52,040 nucleotides of DNA from Sphingobacteriales bacterium (GTDB lineage: Bacteria; Bacteroidota; Bacteroidia; CAILMK01; JAAYUY01), in NCBI GenBank assembly GCA_012517435.1, contig JAAYUY010000147.1, positions 1 to 52,040 on the forward strand. Direction: 5' to 3'. The notes beneath the pieces were generated by a model. That model was not told the DNA's origin and did no database searches. It saw only the letters and a program-made list of their open reading frames with translations. The first letter of the stretch is position 1. Every line of letters starts with the position of its first letter. The position numbers and the translations under genes were made by a program. Of this stretch, positions 4,977 to 17,325 are shown piece after piece.

Positions 4977-5378
4977 TTATACCGGTGCTTGCAGAAATTT
5001 ATTGACCATTTCGTGCAATTCTTCCATTTTAATAGGTTTTGCCAGATAGTCGTTGCAGCCTGCTGCCAGAATATCTTCCCTGTCGCCCGACAAGGCATAG
5101 GCTGTTACTGCTATCACCGGCACTTCCGGCCTTATTTTTTTTATTTCCCTTGTGGCATCCAGACCATTCATCCCGCTCATCTTAATGTCCATCAACACCA
5201 GACGAATGTCGGGATTTTCCTTAAATACCCTGACAGCCTCTGCCCCGTTTTCGACATGTATCACTTCCACGTTCAGGTATTTAAGCATTTTAAACACCAC
5301 CAGATAATTGTAATACTCGTCTTCGGCAAATAATATCAAAGCCGGTTTCTGCGTTTCCTGACTCATTTCTCCTACCAT
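4977..5378 (-). CDS. Single-domain response regulator (CheY-like)
   Basis: A 133-residue receiver domain with nothing attached. The acidic pocket is AEDE (residues 18-21), the phospho-acceptor is Asp64 in VLMDIKM, the switch residue lies in VTAYA, and the conserved lysine is in LAKPIK. It starts nine bases after the hybrid kinase stop, so it is co-transcribed with it, and hybrid kinases of this type often signal through such stand-alone receivers. It is the last gene of the signalling cluster. A second in-frame ATG at 5366 (MSQETQKP) is an equally plausible start. No output domain is present, so it acts by protein contact or as a phosphate shuttle. Confidence 0.9.
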   Translation of the reverse strand: MVGEMSQETQKPALILFAEDEYYNYLVVFKMLKYLNVEVIHVENGAEAVRVFKENPDIRLVLMDIKMSGMNGLDATREIKKIRPEVPVIAVTAYALSGDREDILAAGCNDYLAKPIKMEELHEMVNKFLQAPV

Positions 5379-5387
5379 TGCTTTATG

Positions 5388-8102
5388 TTAATTTTTTATC
5401 GGTATCGTAACATGAAAAACAGTACCTTTTCCAAGCTCAGATTCCACCCTGATCCGCCCATTCAGTAATTCTGTATAAGCCTTACATATTGCCAGCCCAA
5501 GACCTGTTCCCCTGAAAAGCTGGCTTTTATCGCTTTCGACCTTGGTAAATTTTTCAAAAATAAATTCATGATTTTCAGGTGCTATGCCAATTCCGGTATC
5601 ACTGACCCTGAAACACAACTCATTCTCCCGCCTTTCACACATCAGGCTTACCTCACCCTTCTCAGTGAATTTAAAAGCATTGGAAAGCAAATTGTTGATG
5701 ATTTGTTTTAGCTTGGTTTCATCGGTTAATACTTCCTTCTCAGCCTCTGAGATTGAATTAACCAGAATAAAGTTAATTTCAGGATTCTTGTTTTTGTCCT
5801 CATATTGTCTGTAAAGGTTATTTATCATTCTGTTTACATCGAACATCCGGTAAACGGCTTTTTCCTGACCCGATTCTATCATAGAATAATTTACCGTTTC
5901 GGTAACCACATCGATGAGCTGATAGCCGCAATCCTTGATAACTTCAATGTATTCCTGCAATTCTTCCATGGTCGTGCCGGGAGCAGTCAATAATTCGATA
6001 AAGCCGATTATCCCGTTGAGAGGTGTCCGTATTTCATGAGAAATATTATTGAGGAATGAAGATTTGAGCCGGTCGCTTTCTTCTGATTTTTCCTTGGCGG
6101 CAATCAGATCTTCTATCATTTGTTTTTTCTCGGTAATATCTTCTTTTACGCCCAGAAAATGTGTAATTTCTCCATCTGCAGAAAAGATAGGGGCTATTCT
6201 GGCTGATTCCCAGTAAAATTGCCCGTTTTTCTTCCTGTTGTAAAATTCCCCCTGCCAGATTTTTCCTGATGTAATAGTTGACCATAGTTCCTGGTAATAG
6301 GCCTGGGGATGAAATCCTGATTTTAAAATCCCCGGCTTCTTCCCTTCCACCTCTTCAAATGAATAACCTGTAAATTCTTCGAATTTCGGATTGACATACT
6401 CGATGAGCCCATCTTTATCGGTTATTACAATAGCTGCCGGACTTTGAACAACAGCTGTCGAAAGTTTTTTGGCTTCTTCTTCTGCCCGTTTAAGGTTAAG
6501 ATAAATGCTGAACTGGTTGGCAATGATTTCAAAAACATCGAGGTCTTGCAGGCTGTAAGCATCCGGATCATGATAATTCTGGGTTACCATGGCTCCCAAA
6601 ACATTATTTTCGTTGATTAAGGGAACACCCATCCAGCACTCAGAGCGTGAGCCAAGATGTTTTATAAGCCCTTTTTCTGCAAGATCATCAATATCCTTCT
6701 TTTTTAACAGCAACGGACGTTTTTCATGTATCAGGTAACCTGTGAGTGATTTTTCTGCCGGCCACTCCTGAATATTGTCTTTTTCATCTGTCAGGAAGGG
6801 AGTTGACAACATGCCTGTTTTTGGATTGTAAAGTGCTACATAAAAATTGGAAGTATCAAATAACCTGTTTAAAACGGATTTCACTATTTTATAGAGTTCA
6901 TGGGCAGTTTTTGCCATCAGAACGGCATCGGCAATGGCATATTGCACCATCATAATGAGGTCGTTACGATGTTTTTCAGTTACATCCCTGATAATGGCCC
7001 CAATACCCGGTCTGTTTTCCGATAATGTCAGCGGGAATTTGGTCGTTTCAAACACCTTTTTTCCGATGTTTTCATAATTCACCACTATTGTTTTTTCATT
7101 TATGACCCTTTCGTCAGATTTCAGGCAGATACTAGCCTGCTCTTCACTCATCAGCTCAAAATCCGTTTTCCCGATGATTTCTTCCATGCTCCGTTTAAAA
7201 AACTTTTCTGTCGCTCCGTTCACGATTAAATACTTCTTGTTTTCATCCTTGATAAACATCAGATCATTACTGGCCTCCACAAATGAATTATAGATATTTT
7301 CCTTTTCCCTGAGCAATTCCTTTGTTTTTTTCATGGAGGTCATGTCCATGACGGTTACAATCAGTCCTTTTTGTTTATCAGCCGGATTGAGGTGGTTGGC
7401 TGAAAGATAAATATGCATCGGCTCTCCGCTTTTTCTGATCCAGATGGTTTCTGTTTCTGCAATTTCATCCCTCTCCATTTCAGCGATTATCTTACCTATT
7501 CTGTTGTACTCTTCTTCATCCGGATAAAGAAAGCGGGCATTTCTGCCAATCAACTCTTCCCGGCTATAACCTGTTATTTTACAAATTGCTTCATTGATCT
7601 CGATGATAACTCTGTTGATCAAATGACAAATGCCCATGGTTGAAGCATTGAAAATGCTTTTAAGCTTTTCATGGTTAATTTTGTTTTCCTCCTCAATCCT
7701 GATTTTTTCTTTTCTGAGCTCTTTTTCTTTTAAGGCATGTCCCATGGCTGAACCAAGCCTGCGGATATGCTCCTTGATGACATAATCCCAGGCCCCTGCT
7801 TTCATGCATTCCACTGCGGTCTCTTCGTTCAGTGAGCCTGTCAGCATGATGAAGGGTAAAGTCGGATCTTTTTCAATGACTATTTTAAGTGCCTGCATGC
7901 CGGTAAAGGCAGGCATATTGTAATCGCTTAACACGATATCAGGTTGAAATTGTTCGAGGGCTGATATTAAGCCCGCTTCATTATCGGTAACCAGAAGGTC
8001 AGCATCAGGAAAACTGTGTTTTATTTCTCTTTCAGCAAGTGTGATATCTGCCTGAAAATCCTCCAGTAAAAGTACTTTTAAGACATTTTTCATCAGAAAC
8101 AT
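5388..8102 (-). CDS. Hybrid sensor histidine kinase: REC-PAS-PAS-GAF-PAS-HisKA-HATPase
   Basis: A 904-residue cytoplasmic kinase with no membrane segment. In order: N-terminal receiver (Asp60 in VLSDYNM), PAS near 145-260, PAS near 267-378, GAF near 385-540, PAS near 545-660, HisKA with phospho-acceptor His689 in NNISHEIRTPLNG, and a HATPase with N-box NNLLSNAFKF, G1 DTGIGIAPE and G2 GTGLGLAI. The N-terminal rather than C-terminal receiver suggests it receives phosphate or is allosterically gated by another kinase, fitting the neighbouring kinases. ATG 8102 and ATG 8093 (MKNVLKVLLLED) are both usable starts. Its own promoter lies upstream (8129-8160), and the small response regulator directly downstream is the likely partner. 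Confidence 0.92.
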   Translation of the reverse strand: MFLMKNVLKVLLLEDFQADITLAEREIKHSFPDADLLVTDNEAGLISALEQFQPDIVLSDYNMPAFTGMQALKIVIEKDPTLPFIMLTGSLNEETAVECMKAGAWDYVIKEHIRRLGSAMGHALKEKELRKEKIRIEEENKINHEKLKSIFNASTMGICHLINRVIIEINEAICKITGYSREELIGRNARFLYPDEEEYNRIGKIIAEMERDEIAETETIWIRKSGEPMHIYLSANHLNPADKQKGLIVTVMDMTSMKKTKELLREKENIYNSFVEASNDLMFIKDENKKYLIVNGATEKFFKRSMEEIIGKTDFELMSEEQASICLKSDERVINEKTIVVNYENIGKKVFETTKFPLTLSENRPGIGAIIRDVTEKHRNDLIMMVQYAIADAVLMAKTAHELYKIVKSVLNRLFDTSNFYVALYNPKTGMLSTPFLTDEKDNIQEWPAEKSLTGYLIHEKRPLLLKKKDIDDLAEKGLIKHLGSRSECWMGVPLINENNVLGAMVTQNYHDPDAYSLQDLDVFEIIANQFSIYLNLKRAEEEAKKLSTAVVQSPAAIVITDKDGLIEYVNPKFEEFTGYSFEEVEGKKPGILKSGFHPQAYYQELWSTITSGKIWQGEFYNRKKNGQFYWESARIAPIFSADGEITHFLGVKEDITEKKQMIEDLIAAKEKSEESDRLKSSFLNNISHEIRTPLNGIIGFIELLTAPGTTMEELQEYIEVIKDCGYQLIDVVTETVNYSMIESGQEKAVYRMFDVNRMINNLYRQYEDKNKNPEINFILVNSISEAEKEVLTDETKLKQIINNLLSNAFKFTEKGEVSLMCERRENELCFRVSDTGIGIAPENHEFIFEKFTKVESDKSQLFRGTGLGLAICKAYTELLNGRIRVESELGKGTVFHVTIPIKN

Positions 8103-8175: not shown

Positions 8176-8619
8176 TTATTTAGATGGTTCATTAATCAGC
8201 AGCCAGTAGAGGCCAAGATTTTTCACCGTTTCAAAAAAAGTATCAAATTCGACAGGTTTGACCACATAACTATTGGCACCAAGCTCATAGGCTTTTTTTA
8301 TGTCGGGGTCTTGCCTTGAAGAAGTAACAATGACCACGGGAAATTTTCTGGTTTCGGAGTTGTTTTTCAGAATCTGAAGCACTTCCAGCCCGCTGATTTT
8401 AGGGAGTTTCAGGTCGAGGAAAATCACTTTCAGATTTTTGTTTTTGGGAACACCTGAATATTTTCCTCTTGAGAAAACAAAATCAAGTGCTTCGGCACCA
8501 TCTTCCACCAGAAAGATTTTGTTCATTAGCCCACCTTTTTTCAAGGCTCTCAGCATCAGTTCGGCATCTGCCGGATTGTCTTCCACTATCAGAATTTCAA
8601 CTGCCTGAATGTCTTCCAT
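8176..8619 (-). CDS. Rcp1-like single-domain response regulator
   Basis: A 147-residue receiver beginning VEILIVEDNPADAELMLRAL, with the phospho-acceptor Asp69 in IFLDLKLPK, the switch serine in VTSSRQ and the lysine in VVKPVEF. The extended loop before the aspartate and the phrase DLKLPKISGLEVL are typical of the Rcp1/CheY family that partners phytochrome-type kinases. That fits the phytochrome-type HisKA (SVSHDLKAPLR) of the kinase encoded just upstream, 54 bases away. There is no output domain. The start is the ATG at 8619. Confidence 0.92.
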   Translation of the reverse strand: MEDIQAVEILIVEDNPADAELMLRALKKGGLMNKIFLVEDGAEALDFVFSRGKYSGVPKNKNLKVIFLDLKLPKISGLEVLQILKNNSETRKFPVVIVTSSRQDPDIKKAYELGANSYVVKPVEFDTFFETVKNLGLYWLLINEPSK

Positions 8620-8673: not shown

Positions 8674-11600
8674 TCATCCTTCCAAAGGTAATGAAAAATA
8701 AAATTTAGCCCCCTCCCCTGGTTTTCCTTCCGCTTTTACATTTCCCCCATGTTTGCTGACTATTTGTTTGACAATTGCCAGGCCTACTCCTGTTCCTTCA
8801 AATTCTCTTTTGTTGTGTAAGCGCTGAAAGACCTTGAACAAATTCCCTTTAAAGCGATTATCGAATCCGACTCCGTTGTCCTTTACATAGAATTCACAAG
8901 TTCCTTCTTTTTTTGCACATCCGATTTCAATGACAGGATCTGAAACATTGGCACTGAACTTCAGTGCATTGCTGATCAGATTGATCCATACCTGTTTGAG
9001 CAGAATGTAGTCTCCTCTGACCTTGCTCAATTTATGAATTTTAACCTGATATTTACTTTTTTGTTCTTCATTCATGATTTCATTCAGTATTGATTTAACC
9101 AATGTTTCATTATTAACTTCCTCTTTCTGAAGCTCTGCCCTTCCTACTCTCGACAAGCGAAGAAGGTCTTCAATCAGATGCCCCATTTCCAATGCGTTTT
9201 CCGCAATGATCCTGCAGTAATGTTTTCCCTCATTGTCCAGATTTTCCGCATATTCATTCAAAAGAATTTTGGCAAAACCATTGATTGCCCGTAAAGGTGC
9301 CTTGAGGTCATGTGAGACTGAATAAGTAAATGCTTCCAGTTCCCTGATCGTATTTTCCAGCTGGATTGTCCGCTCTTCCACCAGCTTTTCCAGCTCTTTT
9401 CTGTATTTTTCCAGTTCTTTTTCTGCTTTAACCTTTTCGGTAATGTCCTGAATGATACCACCCAGAAGTATTTCATCTTCTGCCACCTCTATTCTGAATT
9501 TCTGAGTAAAAAGTACATGTTCAACACCATATTTGTCTTTCCACGTTTCTTCATAACTGCAATATCCCTTTTCAAGAGCCTCTGTGTCTTTTGCTATCAT
9601 TACGCTGGCTATTTCAGGCGGAAAAGTTTCCTCTGGTCTGCGGTTTTTCCATTCCTCGAAAGGAAAATAATGGCAGAATTTTTCATTGGCATAAATAGGC
9701 CTCAGTTCCGCATCTTTTATCAATATCATGGCCGGGATGTAGTTCAGCAAAGCATTGAGCTGTGCCTGATTTTCGCGTAGTGTAGCCTCTATCTTTTTGG
9801 ATTGAGTGATGTCGGAAATGACATGAACGGCACCCTGAAATTCCCTGTTTTCATTTAAAATCGGGTCAACCGTAATCAGATAGGTGTTTCCATTGATAAC
9901 CATCTCCATTACTTCCCTTTCCAGGCTTTTTTTCATCCTGACAAAGGGGCAGCCTTCGATGGGGCAAGTGGTCTGGTGAACCTTCTCATAACAATATACA
10001 CATTTTCCGTTTCCTCCGTTGTTCCCGAACATCTTATCAAAAGCATGGTTCGTTTTCAGTATTTTCTGATCACTGTCCAGCAATATAATTCCGTCCTGAA
10101 TGGCATCAAATGTAATACGCCATTGTGTTTCAGAGCGTTTCAGCTCAGTTTCCCTGATATATTTTTCAGTTACATCCTGGTCAAAAACAAGGAAGGCAGG
10201 TCTTCCTTCCCATTGTATATTGGTAACTTTCCTGTCAAGCCACCTGATCCGGCCGCTTTTATCAATGATTCTGAACTGATAGTTTTCAGGGATATTCAAA
10301 CCAGCCGTCCTCTTTTTCAAATAATCAGTAACCATTGGCCTGTCATCGGAGTGAATGATTCTTAAAGGATCGCCATTGTTCAGTTCTTCAATCGTATATC
10401 CTGTAATATTTATCAGATTAGGATTAGAAAACCTGATTTTCCCGTCCTGAACAACTGAAATTGTTTCCATGGCATTTTCAACCAAAGCGCGGTATTTTTC
10501 TTCACTTTCCCGTAGTGCCTTTTCAGTATTTTTTAGCGGTGTGATATCGAGCATGGAAACAATAATAAAATCTAATTCGGGAGCATGTCCTATGGTTAAA
10601 ATAGCGTCCCTGATCTCCCCGCTGGCATGAATCAGGCGTGCTTCATATCGCTTGGGAATGTTTTCCCTGGCAGTAAAACGTTTCTGAAAATAATCCAACA
10701 TCAATGGAAGACTTTCAGTCGCCACATATTTTTCCCATTTTGTCCCTATCAACTCCTGCTGTGAATAACCTGTTATCCGGTAACATTCCTCATTTGCCAT
10801 TGTAATGACGCCATCCTCCCTGACAATAATGGTTGCTGTTCCGGTGTTCTCAAAAAGGTTCCGGTAGAGAATATGCGATTTTTCCAGTTCCTGACGTGCT
10901 GCTATTCTCTCTGTGATATCCTGAATAACGGCCAGAAAAACCTTTTTCCCTTCAAAATCAGACAATTGCAGATTGACCTCCACAGGATATTCGCTTCCGT
11001 CTTTCCGTAAGTGAAAGGTTTCAAACCTGACAACTTCTTCTCTCCTGTTTTTTAACGGCTCTAATAATTCATTGAATGTCTTTTGATTAAACCTCTTTTT
11101 TAAATCAAGTGGTGTCATTTCACGGAGTTGCTCCATGCTATAGCCCAGATTCCGTAATGCTCCCTGATTGACATAAATAAACTTGAGAGATTCAGCATCG
11201 AAAATATAAACTTCATTGACCGATCGGTCAATGGTAAATGTCAACATTAATTTCTCCTGAAGCAAAGCCTTTTCATCTTCCAGTATGCTTAAAAGTGCCT
11301 TGCGTGATCTTTCAGCTTCCTCAAGTAAATTTTTTTGCTGTTCGAGCAGATTCAGGTTGCTTACTTTCTCGCTCTGCAGCTTGTCAATCATTTCGTTTAG
11401 TTGTTCCTGATGTAAACTACTTTCGGCCCGAAGATTCCGTAATTCGAGGTGAAGGTTAGCCCTGAGCACCAGCTCTTCGGTATCGACCGGCTTTGCCAGA
11501 AAATCAACTGCTCCTGCCTGATATGCTTTTAACCTGTTTTCTATGTGGCTATAGGCACTCAGCATAATTACCGGCAAATTATTAAATTTCTTATCCGAAA

Positions 11601-11811
11601 GCAAAGATTTACAAAATTTAATGCCATCGCTATCAGGGAGTTTGATATCGAGGAGAACGAGATCGGCCATGTCATCCGACAAAATTTGGCGTGCTTCGGC
11701 AGCACTTCCGGCTACTATTGTCTGAAAACCATTGATTAACAGGACTTTTTTAATTAATTCCACCCATTCGGCTTCATCATCAACTATCAGGATTTTTCTT
11801 TCTTTTTCCAT
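8674..11811 (-). CDS. Multi-PAS histidine kinase: REC-coiled coil-5xPAS-HisKA-HATPase
   Basis: A 1045-residue soluble kinase. It has an N-terminal receiver (residues 4-118, Asp55 in LVLLDIKLP), a coiled coil near 125-185, and five PAS domains ending near 300, 425, 550, 670 and 792. The fourth PAS has Cys604, Cys607, Cys616 and Cys621 (KCVYCYEK...TCPIEGCPF), a cysteine set seen in some PAS_4 domains. A long coiled coil leads to a phytochrome-type HisKA (His834 in SVSHDLKAPLR) and a HATPase (NLISNALKFS, DNGVGFD, GTGVGLAI). The frame stays open to 11925, but the receiver begins at the ATG at 11811, ten bases after the preceding gene's stop, so that start was chosen. The receiver at the front suggests it takes phosphate from the small PAS kinase upstream. 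Confidence 0.92.
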   Translation of the reverse strand: MEKERKILIVDDEAEWVELIKKVLLINGFQTIVAGSAAEARQILSDDMADLVLLDIKLPDSDGIKFCKSLLSDKKFNNLPVIMLSAYSHIENRLKAYQAGAVDFLAKPVDTEELVLRANLHLELRNLRAESSLHQEQLNEMIDKLQSEKVSNLNLLEQQKNLLEEAERSRKALLSILEDEKALLQEKLMLTFTIDRSVNEVYIFDAESLKFIYVNQGALRNLGYSMEQLREMTPLDLKKRFNQKTFNELLEPLKNRREEVVRFETFHLRKDGSEYPVEVNLQLSDFEGKKVFLAVIQDITERIAARQELEKSHILYRNLFENTGTATIIVREDGVITMANEECYRITGYSQQELIGTKWEKYVATESLPLMLDYFQKRFTARENIPKRYEARLIHASGEIRDAILTIGHAPELDFIIVSMLDITPLKNTEKALRESEEKYRALVENAMETISVVQDGKIRFSNPNLINITGYTIEELNNGDPLRIIHSDDRPMVTDYLKKRTAGLNIPENYQFRIIDKSGRIRWLDRKVTNIQWEGRPAFLVFDQDVTEKYIRETELKRSETQWRITFDAIQDGIILLDSDQKILKTNHAFDKMFGNNGGNGKCVYCYEKVHQTTCPIEGCPFVRMKKSLEREVMEMVINGNTYLITVDPILNENREFQGAVHVISDITQSKKIEATLRENQAQLNALLNYIPAMILIKDAELRPIYANEKFCHYFPFEEWKNRRPEETFPPEIASVMIAKDTEALEKGYCSYEETWKDKYGVEHVLFTQKFRIEVAEDEILLGGIIQDITEKVKAEKELEKYRKELEKLVEERTIQLENTIRELEAFTYSVSHDLKAPLRAINGFAKILLNEYAENLDNEGKHYCRIIAENALEMGHLIEDLLRLSRVGRAELQKEEVNNETLVKSILNEIMNEEQKSKYQVKIHKLSKVRGDYILLKQVWINLISNALKFSANVSDPVIEIGCAKKEGTCEFYVKDNGVGFDNRFKGNLFKVFQRLHNKREFEGTGVGLAIVKQIVSKHGGNVKAEGKPGEGAKFYFSLPLEG

Positions 11812-11821
11812 GTATTCAGGA

Positions 11822-13042
11822 TTAGTTTTGACTAAATTTATTGGAAAGCGGCAGGTAAAAACCAAAAACACTTCCTTTTCCCTCCTCACTTTTAACCTCC
11901 ATGTAACCATGGTGGGCTTCCACAATTTTTTTTACAATATAAAGCCCCAGCCCTGTGCCTTTCTCCCCTGAAGTTCCTTTAGCACCAAGGGTCTGAAAGG
12001 GTTGAAACAAGAGTTTCATGTTTTCAGGGCTTATTCCTTTTCCATGGTCAGCCACAGAAATATGGATAAAATCTCCTTTTTTCCTGCACTTAATTTCCAC
12101 CACGGAGTTTTCAAAAGAAAATTTAACGGCATTGCCAATGAGGTTATTAAGAACCTGTGTCAGCTTTCTGCTATCTGCCTGAATTTCAATTTTTTTCAAA
12201 GAGGATTCGAATTTCAGGTTAATCTTTTTTCCGGAAGAAAGTACCTGATTCAACTCAACATTTTGCCGGATAAATTCCACCAAATCAATCTTTTCAGGGA
12301 TGATTTCAATTTTCCCGGATTCAATTTTCGAAAAATCAAGCATATCTTCTAATAAATTCACCATGAAACGGGATGATTTTTCAATAATCTTCAGGAACTT
12401 AAGTTGCTCTTCTGTCAGGTTGTTTCCGGCATCAAAAATCAGAAATGAAGCATAGCTGGAAATAATACTCAATGGATTTCGCAGGTCGTGGGCAGCCATC
12501 CCGAGAAACTTGTTTTTCAAATCATTCAATTGAATAAGCTCTGCATTTTTCTTTTCGAGTTGCCGGTGAAGATTGATAAGTTCATTGTTGAGCTTTGAAA
12601 TTTCATAAAAAATTTCGTTAATATCTCCCTTATCCGGAATACTTTTTTGCCGGTTCCTTTCCTTTATCAGTTGCCTGATCTGATTGGCCTGCTCGTTACT
12701 CAGATTGAATAGCTGCTCAACCCAGTTGTCCGGCCCTCTGTCGAATTCTGCTCCGAAAATTAACACTTCCCCATCGAGGACTGCCCCTGTGAATTGCAGC
12801 ACTTTCAATCCTTCTGGCGTTACGACAACCAATTCATATCCCTGAACATACCTCTCTTCCTTGATTTTAATGAAAAAATCGAGTGCTTTGGATTGTGAAC
12901 CCGGATCAAAAATTTTCGAAAACAAATGGCCTTCTATCTTTTCTTTCTTAAAACCAAAGTCATTTTTTACCAACTCAACGACAAAACCGTTGTCGTTGCA
13001 CAACATGGAGAATATCTTTGTTTTAAGCATTGTCTGACTCAT
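11822..13042 (-). CDS. PAS-type histidine kinase (small, soluble)
   Basis: A 406-residue kinase with no membrane segment. Residues 1-105 look like a divergent PAS fold, followed by a coiled coil near 145-178. HisKA has His185 in GMAAHDLRNPLSIISSY, and the HATPase has NNLIGNAVKFS, ADHGKGISPE and GTGLGLYIVKKIV. Its ATG overlaps the stop of the B12-binding gene by ATGA, so the two are translationally coupled and probably act together. The most economical reading is that this kinase reads the state of the B12-binding protein and/or the kinase-less sensor. No periplasmic or obvious ligand-binding residues can be seen in its N-terminal domain. Confidence 0.9.
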   Translation of the reverse strand: MSQTMLKTKIFSMLCNDNGFVVELVKNDFGFKKEKIEGHLFSKIFDPGSQSKALDFFIKIKEERYVQGYELVVVTPEGLKVLQFTGAVLDGEVLIFGAEFDRGPDNWVEQLFNLSNEQANQIRQLIKERNRQKSIPDKGDINEIFYEISKLNNELINLHRQLEKKNAELIQLNDLKNKFLGMAAHDLRNPLSIISSYASFLIFDAGNNLTEEQLKFLKIIEKSSRFMVNLLEDMLDFSKIESGKIEIIPEKIDLVEFIRQNVELNQVLSSGKKINLKFESSLKKIEIQADSRKLTQVLNNLIGNAVKFSFENSVVEIKCRKKGDFIHISVADHGKGISPENMKLLFQPFQTLGAKGTSGEKGTGLGLYIVKKIVEAHHGYMEVKSEEGKGSVFGFYLPLSNKFSQN

Positions 13043-14100
13043 ATTTCAACCATTTTTTCAGCTTCACAGACAGCTCCGAGTGCATCGGAGGCATAGGCAT
13101 CGGCACCGAAAATATTCCAGTTTTTACTGAATTCGTTAATAGCCACCCCGCCAATTATAATTTTCAGGTCTCTGGCATATTTGCTTTGACGAATTTGAGA
13201 AATTGTGTCTTTTAATAAAGAGCGATGGTAAGGCAAAGCTACCGAAAGCCCCAGCACATCGGCCTGATATTCTTCGGCAGCATTGATCAGAACGGAGGCA
13301 GGTGTATTGGCACCCAGATAATAAGTATCCCATCCTTCCATTTCGAAAAAATCGGCTACCATGCGTATGCCTATTTCGTGAAGTTCTCCGCCCACACAGG
13401 CACCAATAAAGGTTTTGCCTTTTTTTTCATTGTTGAAAATATAGGGATACAACTGCGACATAATCATCTGGGTGGCTGCTGAGCAAAAGTGCTCCTTAGC
13501 CACACTGATCTGATTCGACATCCAGAGCCTTCCTACTTCATACTGTGCAGGTTGAAAGATTTTCAGGTAAATGTCTTTAACGGGGCAACCTTTCATAAAT
13601 GTTTCCATAATCAGGGAGGCAGCTTTATTTTTATCTCCCGAAAGCAAGGCATTCAGATAGGCTTTCAGCACATCTGCAAGTGGTTCATCTTCCTGAATAT
13701 AAGAGGAAATACTTTGCAAAGGCTTATTCAATTCATTCAAGCCTGCCTGAATAAAAACGGCAGTGATCTGTCCATATTCCGGTGAGGCTTCTTCAATAGC
13801 CAGTTGTGTGCATTCGAGCGTTTTGGGCACTACATCATCCGGAAATTTCAGATTATGGAATAAAGTTTTCACCCATACCACATATTTGCTGAAAATCTCC
13901 GGATTGTTTTCGGCAATGGCCTCACCCAGAAAAGGCAAATGATATCCGGCATCACGAATACTGAGTTTTTTACCCTCATCACCATAGGTTTTCCAGAAAT
14001 CAGGCTGCATGCCATACTGTAATTCCACTATCCTGACGGCCAGATCATTTTTTCTGACTTCGAGAAAATCTTTAATCTGCTTGCTTTTTTCCATTATCAT
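13039..14100 (-). CDS. Cobalamin-binding sensor with CarH-type Wx9EH motif
   Basis: A 353-residue soluble protein. Residues 1-130 are an unrecognised helical domain. Residues ~135-220 match the helical B12-binding cap, and ~228-350 the Rossmann-like cobalamin domain. Trp193 followed by Glu203-His204 is the Wx9EH signature of AdoCbl photoreceptors such as CarH, in which the Trp and His cap the upper axial face. Glu239-Leu-His241...Gly244 is the ExHxxG lower-ligand motif. The MerR DNA-binding domain of CarH is absent, and no methyltransferase or mutase domain is attached. It overlaps the sensor gene before it and the kinase gene after it by ATGA each, so a role as an input module for the kinase is inferred. 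It could sense light through AdoCbl, or cobalamin itself. Confidence 0.88.
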   Translation of the reverse strand: MIMEKSKQIKDFLEVRKNDLAVRIVELQYGMQPDFWKTYGDEGKKLSIRDAGYHLPFLGEAIAENNPEIFSKYVVWVKTLFHNLKFPDDVVPKTLECTQLAIEEASPEYGQITAVFIQAGLNELNKPLQSISSYIQEDEPLADVLKAYLNALLSGDKNKAASLIMETFMKGCPVKDIYLKIFQPAQYEVGRLWMSNQISVAKEHFCSAATQMIMSQLYPYIFNNEKKGKTFIGACVGGELHEIGIRMVADFFEMEGWDTYYLGANTPASVLINAAEEYQADVLGLSVALPYHRSLLKDTISQIRQSKYARDLKIIIGGVAINEFSKNWNIFGADAYASDALGAVCEAEKMVEI

Positions 14101-17276: not shown

Positions 17277-17325
17277 CCGGTAAATTTTTAATGCTCGTTC
17301 AGGAAAATGCCTCAAAAAATCAGTT

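Follow-up and report, generated by a model that had tools for sequence, protein, structure and literature searches.

A probable stand-alone photocobilin, globin domain first, encoded beside its predicted partner histidine kinase in a Sphingobacteriales bacterium

The stretch analysed here (the window) comprises 52,040 nucleotides of contig JAAYUY010000147.1 from a Sphingobacteriales bacterium. Seven genes lie on the same strand between positions 17315 and 4977 and encode, in order of reading, a sensor, a photocobilin, a histidine kinase, a hybrid kinase, a receiver, a second hybrid kinase and a second receiver (Table 1). From strand and spacing we infer that the run is one transcript. The photocobilin gene overlaps the kinase gene by an ATGA, as the first-pass annotation had reported, and a second ATGA overlap joins the stop of the upstream sensor to the start of the photocobilin. 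DNA-binding output was not recognised in the seven-gene cluster, and no PHY domain, i.e. no phytochrome-type sensor, was found in the organism's own genome.

Table 1. Coordinates of the features at the photocobilin locus (window positions), with examples of the IsdG-like gene from two related loci.
Feature	Position	Strand	Description
Upstream sensor, 1072 aa	14097..17315	(-)	PAS/GAF repeats, sub-threshold dCache match, no kinase domain; start codon uncertain
Photocobilin gene	13039..14100	(-)	353 aa; globin N-terminal, B12 module C-terminal
Photoglobin / phycobiliprotein-like bilin domain	13726..14100	(-)	about aa 1-125; profile, PF00502 and fold matches
S47-I48-R49-D50	13951..13962	(-)	corresponds to the CxRD/CXQD bilin motif, with Ser for Cys
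W76	13873..13875	(-)	aligned with SasPcob Trp296
B12-binding_2 four-helix cap, W193 and E203-H204	13450..13668	(-)	aa 145-217; PF02607 3.3e-16
B12-binding Rossmann domain	13060..13413	(-)	about aa 230-347; PF02310 1.9e-18 at aa 231-343
Partner histidine kinase	11822..13042	(-)	406 aa; HisKA 1e-17, HATPase_c 1.9e-30; H185 in HDLRNP; no recognised membrane part
Kinase input domain and coiled coil	12518..13042	(-)	aa 1-175; common to relatives' partner kinases
Receiver-PAS-HK hybrid kinase	8674..11811	(-)	ATG at 11811
Single-domain receiver	8176..8619	(-)	Rcp1, RcpA and RcpB phytochrome regulators among better PDB matches
Receiver-PAS-GAF-PAS-HK hybrid kinase	5388..8102	(-)	domain search
Single-domain receiver	4977..5378	(-)	closes the same-strand run
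IsdG-like ABM gene, examples	L036:7679-7978; L042:7692-7991		directly precedes photocobilin

The photocobilin gene had been described as encoding a CarH-type protein without a DNA-binding domain, carrying W193-x9-E203-H204 and E239/H241/G244. All of these residues are present at those positions of the open reading frame, and Pfam finds both B12-binding parts and no MerR domain. The published light-response signature GxxW, EH, GxxH and GxxxP (PMC11796333) is complete, being represented by G190/W193, E203-H204, G238/H241 and G263/P267. A single scan of genome contigs found 80 related loci, 71 of which encode full-length proteins; in the 72 sequences formed by these and the window protein, W193, E203, H204, H241 and G244 are invariant, while position 239 is occupied by E in 55 sequences and by D in 17. 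The best PDB match (phmmer) was a solved photocobilin (1.1e-22), and the corrinoid protein 4JGI gave 4.9e-17. A full-length AlphaFold2 model (pLDDT 94.3) matched the fold of 8J2W/8J2Y over the B12 part, and TtCarH (5C8D) was also matched. H241 is the predicted lower cobalt ligand. The counterpart of CarH His132 is Met194 in the window protein, and Gln in 54 of the 72 sequences; since the bis-His residue is replaced by Met194, the bis-His light state of CarH is not expected, and one resembling the light state of SasPcob has the higher likelihood. A PduO-type adenosyltransferase is encoded in the window's own genome, and therefore AdoCbl can probably be made or salvaged there.

The N-terminal domain, which the first-pass annotation had left as unrecognised, proved to be identifiable. 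In the phmmer search of PDB, the bilin domains of the two known photocobilins gave a second alignment, over residues 47-101, which was weak and by itself not significant. Pfam searched with the window's N-terminal domain alone returned no match, so an alignment of relatives was needed. A profile built from 41 N-terminal regions of relatives detected SasPcob (8J2X, 1.3e-7), AbPcob (8J2Y, 1.7e-6), allophycocyanin (8.9e-7) and many phycobiliproteins in PDB; one designed repeat protein was also matched, merely through summed sub-significant repeats. Phycobilisome of Pfam (PF00502) matched 30 of the same 41 regions, with a best value of 1.2e-10. The full model, when used for the fold search, was aligned chiefly over its B12 half, and the N-terminal region was therefore modelled alone. 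AlphaFold2 gave a seven-helix model (pLDDT 93.7), for which the 50 best matches in the PDB fold search were all phycobiliproteins or smURFP, with query-normalised TM-scores mostly 0.65-0.78 and a lowest E-value of 8.6e-4.

The residues expected at a bilin site are conserved as well. D50 is kept in 70 and W76 in all of the 72 sequences, with the spacing of 26 found in SasPcob, and they align with SasPcob Asp270, which holds the bilin rings, and Trp296, which touches ring D and the corrin (PMC10979010). The bilin motif reads CxRD in phycobiliproteins and CXQD in photoglobins (PMC10151467). Position 47 is Cys in 17 of the 72 sequences and Ser in the window protein, so covalent attachment of a bilin there is not expected. 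Taken together, the N-terminal domain is, by sequence and predicted fold, a globin of the bilin-binding type, which places the protein with the photocobilins. Thus, from the earlier description, the CarH-like AdoCbl site and the absence of a DNA-binding domain hold, but the protein, having this globin, is a photocobilin rather than a CarH minus that domain.

Two actinobacterial proteins served to define the photocobilins in 2024 (Zhang et al. 2024, PMC10979010; PDB 8J2W/8J2X/8J2Y), and a globin-first group was mentioned from predicted structures (PMC10979010). The window protein resembles SasPcob and AbDPcob in its two domains, its full set of B12 light-response motifs and the aligned bilin-contact Asp and Trp, and it shares with SasPcob a stand-alone architecture. 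However, its domain order is reversed, its motif starts with S47 where that of SasPcob starts with Thr, and its output is a separate kinase gene and not a fused cyclase. With CarH/LitR (TtCarH, PDB 5C8D) it has in common the AdoCbl module with W-x9-EH and E-x-H, supported by a predicted fold match, whereas it lacks the MerR DNA-binding domain and has an extra bilin domain. Its N-terminal fold and the position of the bilin motif are those of phycobiliproteins (allophycocyanin, smURFP), yet it has no chromophore Cys and forms part of a sensor. As in the photoglobins and the bilin-biosynthesis-associated globins BBAG-2, a bilin-type globin is linked to a B12-binding domain. Gene clusters of a globin, a B12-binding protein and a heme oxygenase have been described (PMC10151467); unlike in BBAG-2 clusters, where globin and B12 protein are in separate genes, the two are fused in the window protein, and most candidate heme-opening neighbours of its relatives are IsdG-like or radical SAM genes, not heme oxygenase. 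The protein is therefore of a known kind, in an arrangement that has been mentioned but not characterised.

The coupling to a histidine kinase that had been proposed from the overlapping genes extends to the relatives. Among the 76 related loci that are intact and have sufficient downstream sequence, 72 carry a histidine kinase gene immediately 3' of the photocobilin, and 60 of these kinases share the N-terminal domain of the window kinase (single-sequence search). A chance neighbourhood was rejected on this count and on the finding that all 26 IsdG-like matches in the scanned flanks directly precede the photocobilin. The kinase had been called a soluble PAS kinase. It is a histidine kinase and no membrane part was recognised, but the PAS assignment is unconvincing, with PAS_9 E-values of 0.029-0.12, below the cut-off, and an hhalign probability of 5.8% to a PAS profile. 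A profile search of Pfam and PDB with the input domain gave no reliable match. Between the input domain and HisKA, these kinases have a conserved INNEQxNxLR helix and then a RLNNELxNxQREL coiled coil. At two loci (L037 and L062) the reading frame after the photocobilin encodes 173 and 200 aa, matching the input domain with no kinase match. Pairwise distances of photocobilins and kinases are correlated (r 0.54, against a shuffled maximum of 0.19), a value to which shared ancestry contributes. Because seven relatives of B12-only length retain the downstream kinase (two checked by Pfam), the kinase is suggested to read the B12 module; judging from the gene pairs, the two probably make contact.

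The pair of photocobilin and histidine kinase occurs in Bacteroidota, Chloroflexota, Acidobacteriota, Thermodesulfobacteriota, Bacillota and contigs labelled archaeal. It was not found in any of 11 other genomes of the organism's own order, as far as the photocobilin is concerned. In the tree, in which some forks are weakly supported, the window protein falls within a Bacteroidales group of radical SAM loci, beside the heme-oxygenase group. Its nearest relative is that of locus L004. The archaeal labels belong to L041, L049, L058 and L070, whose contigs are assigned to Lokiarchaeota, Methanolobus and Bathyarchaeota; for the MAGs, binning errors are possible. Short relatives without the globin (225-264 aa) followed by a kinase are those at L074, L076, L077, L078, L080, L081 and L083.

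A candidate heme-opening gene lies upstream of the photocobilin in 35 related loci, IsdG-like in 26, heme oxygenase in 5 and HutW-like radical SAM in 4. In the 26 loci a gene of the ABM superfamily directly precedes the photocobilin, mostly overlapping it or at most 20 bases away. Its closest solved structures are first a Thermus protein without assigned function, followed by others among which are HmoB, MhuD, IsdI and IsdG, and its closest NCBIfam model is HmuQ, below cut-off. In 18 aligned sequences Trp65 and His75 are invariant and the catalytic Asn is replaced by Ser6, likewise invariant, so the Asn-Trp-His triad is incomplete; by sequence likeness these neighbours are candidate heme-opening enzymes. 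Heme oxygenase genes lie about 220-275 bases upstream in L009, L010, L015 and L017, and about 1.2 kb upstream in L083, where the adjoining gene encodes a B12-only relative without the globin. The contigs of these five loci are labelled Deltaproteobacteria, Syntrophaceae, Desulfobacteraceae and Desulfuromonadales. Radical SAM genes precede the photocobilin in L005 (split in two reading frames), L006, L011 and L027; the three scanned had ChuW/HutW as the best NCBIfam model, at 241-268 bits against a cut-off of 400. At E <= 1e-60, the radical SAM profile matched in 1 of 51 genomes, the one with a linked gene. A genome-wide search with the curated HutW/ChuW model was discarded: all 46 genomes and all 14 controls matched, and 0 of the 46 reached the cut-off, which fits HemN/HemW-like paralogues. 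For this reason only the linked HutW-like genes were counted. Since three unrelated kinds of candidate heme-opening enzyme adjoin one sensor, the globin is predicted to bind a linear tetrapyrrole.

The organism's own genome (97% complete) contains no heme oxygenase detectable with two profiles, no ABM-family gene and no HutW-like gene, and a heme oxygenase was found anywhere in the genome in 6 of the 50 photocobilin-holding genomes examined. The bilin may be exogenous or come from an unrecognised enzyme, the gene may fall in an assembly gap, or the globin may work without bilin. Against a two-chromophore reading, with no recognisable heme-opening enzyme, the organism's own globin may be empty or externally supplied. 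The Ser that takes the place of the catalytic Asn in the IsdG-like neighbours of relatives also weighs against it.

What can be read directly from the sequences is the identity of the domains, the invariance of the chromophore residues, the gene overlaps and the conserved pairing with a histidine kinase that has a common input domain. We consider it probable that the gene product is a stand-alone photocobilin, in which a bilin-type globin and a CarH-type AdoCbl module serve as the in trans light input of the histidine kinase. Its homologues SasPcob and AbDPcob respond to light in vitro (PMC10979010). The most likely role would be that of a light sensor which switches the kinase in trans and feeds the phosphorelay of the seven-gene operon. 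In the dark, the protein would form a head-to-tail dimer, with AdoCbl lying between the Rossmann domain, whose H241 would serve as lower ligand, and the four-helix cap (W193, E203/H204). The Co-C bond would break under green light, and also under red light if a bilin occupies the globin pocket. On cleavage the dimer would open, the kinase input domain, probably touching the B12 module, would alter kinase activity, and the operon's Rcp-like and hybrid receivers would take up the phosphate.

An alternative, which we regard as unlikely, is that the protein senses cobalamin status, reporting the level or form of AdoCbl to the kinase, with a globin that is structural or ligand-free. This would agree with the lack of a recognisable heme oxygenase in its own and most holder genomes examined, with the kinase kept by the seven B12-only relatives and with the poor binding of biliverdin by AbDPcob (PMC10979010). 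However, D50 and W76 are conserved, three kinds of candidate heme-opening genes adjoin the photocobilin in relatives, and the invariant W and EH are the residues that stack on and cap the light-cleaved adenosyl group. It is also unlikely that the main target of modulation by the photocobilin is the upstream 1072-aa PAS/GAF sensor, in a three-protein complex whose kinase integrates light with other signals. In favour of this, the sensor has no kinase domain, its gene overlaps that of the photocobilin, and a PAS/HK gene occupies the corresponding overlapping position in L014, but of the 117 upstream neighbours that were scanned only 4 matched PAS_9, whereas the downstream kinase is nearly universal. 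That the protein is a corrinoid carrier of a methyltransferase system, placed in a signalling operon by chance, is highly improbable because, although MtgC is the top-scoring NCBIfam model at 66.9 bits against a cut-off of 370, every curated cut-off is missed (MtbC, 49.8 bits against 350), the solved photocobilin outranks 4JGI in PDB, the light-response signature is complete, and the partner is a kinase and not a methyltransferase.

With the light-sensor reading preferred, the relatives would form a large photocobilin branch, in bacteria and contigs labelled archaeal, in which the domain order is reversed and the partner kinase conserved. A two-gene construct would allow light control of a two-component system by B12 and bilin to be tested directly. 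The conserved pair and its candidate heme-opening neighbour suggest a widespread light-signalling system, predicted to operate partly in anaerobes; which bilin is used, and by what route anaerobes would make it, can be tested gene by gene from the linked candidates. The two open-access photocobilin papers say nothing of histidine kinases in their text, and the main one names neither heme oxygenase nor KaiC. Schneider et al., writing on photoglobins in 2022, reportedly predicted links to prokaryotic signalling domains, and given those predictions it is uncertain whether the kinase pairing is described here for the first time.

In six related loci of Bacteroidota and Chloroflexota (L006, L008, L014, L025, L037 and L059), KaiB and KaiC genes follow the photocobilin-kinase pair on the same strand; the KaiC of L008 is above the curated cut-off, and L004 has KaiB without KaiC in the corresponding downstream place. 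The link is confined to relatives, because the organism's own genome has no KaiB. It raises the possibility that clock-like proteins outside cyanobacteria receive an input from light, and in the open literature, of which our coverage is incomplete, no report of KaiC joined with B12 photosensors was found. We put forward only tentatively, as a doubtful possibility, that the family's bilins are made locally by three unrelated heme-opening routes (IsdG-like, heme oxygenase and HutW-like radical SAM), so that part of it senses light with non-biliverdin bilins, formed without O2 in anaerobes, and in some lineages feeds KaiB-KaiC. Elsewhere in the organism's own genome (L003:1105-2028, minus strand), a MerR-like protein with W-x9-EH is encoded next to an ECF-like sigma factor, both named from sequence without a family search; it is probably a second B12 light regulator.
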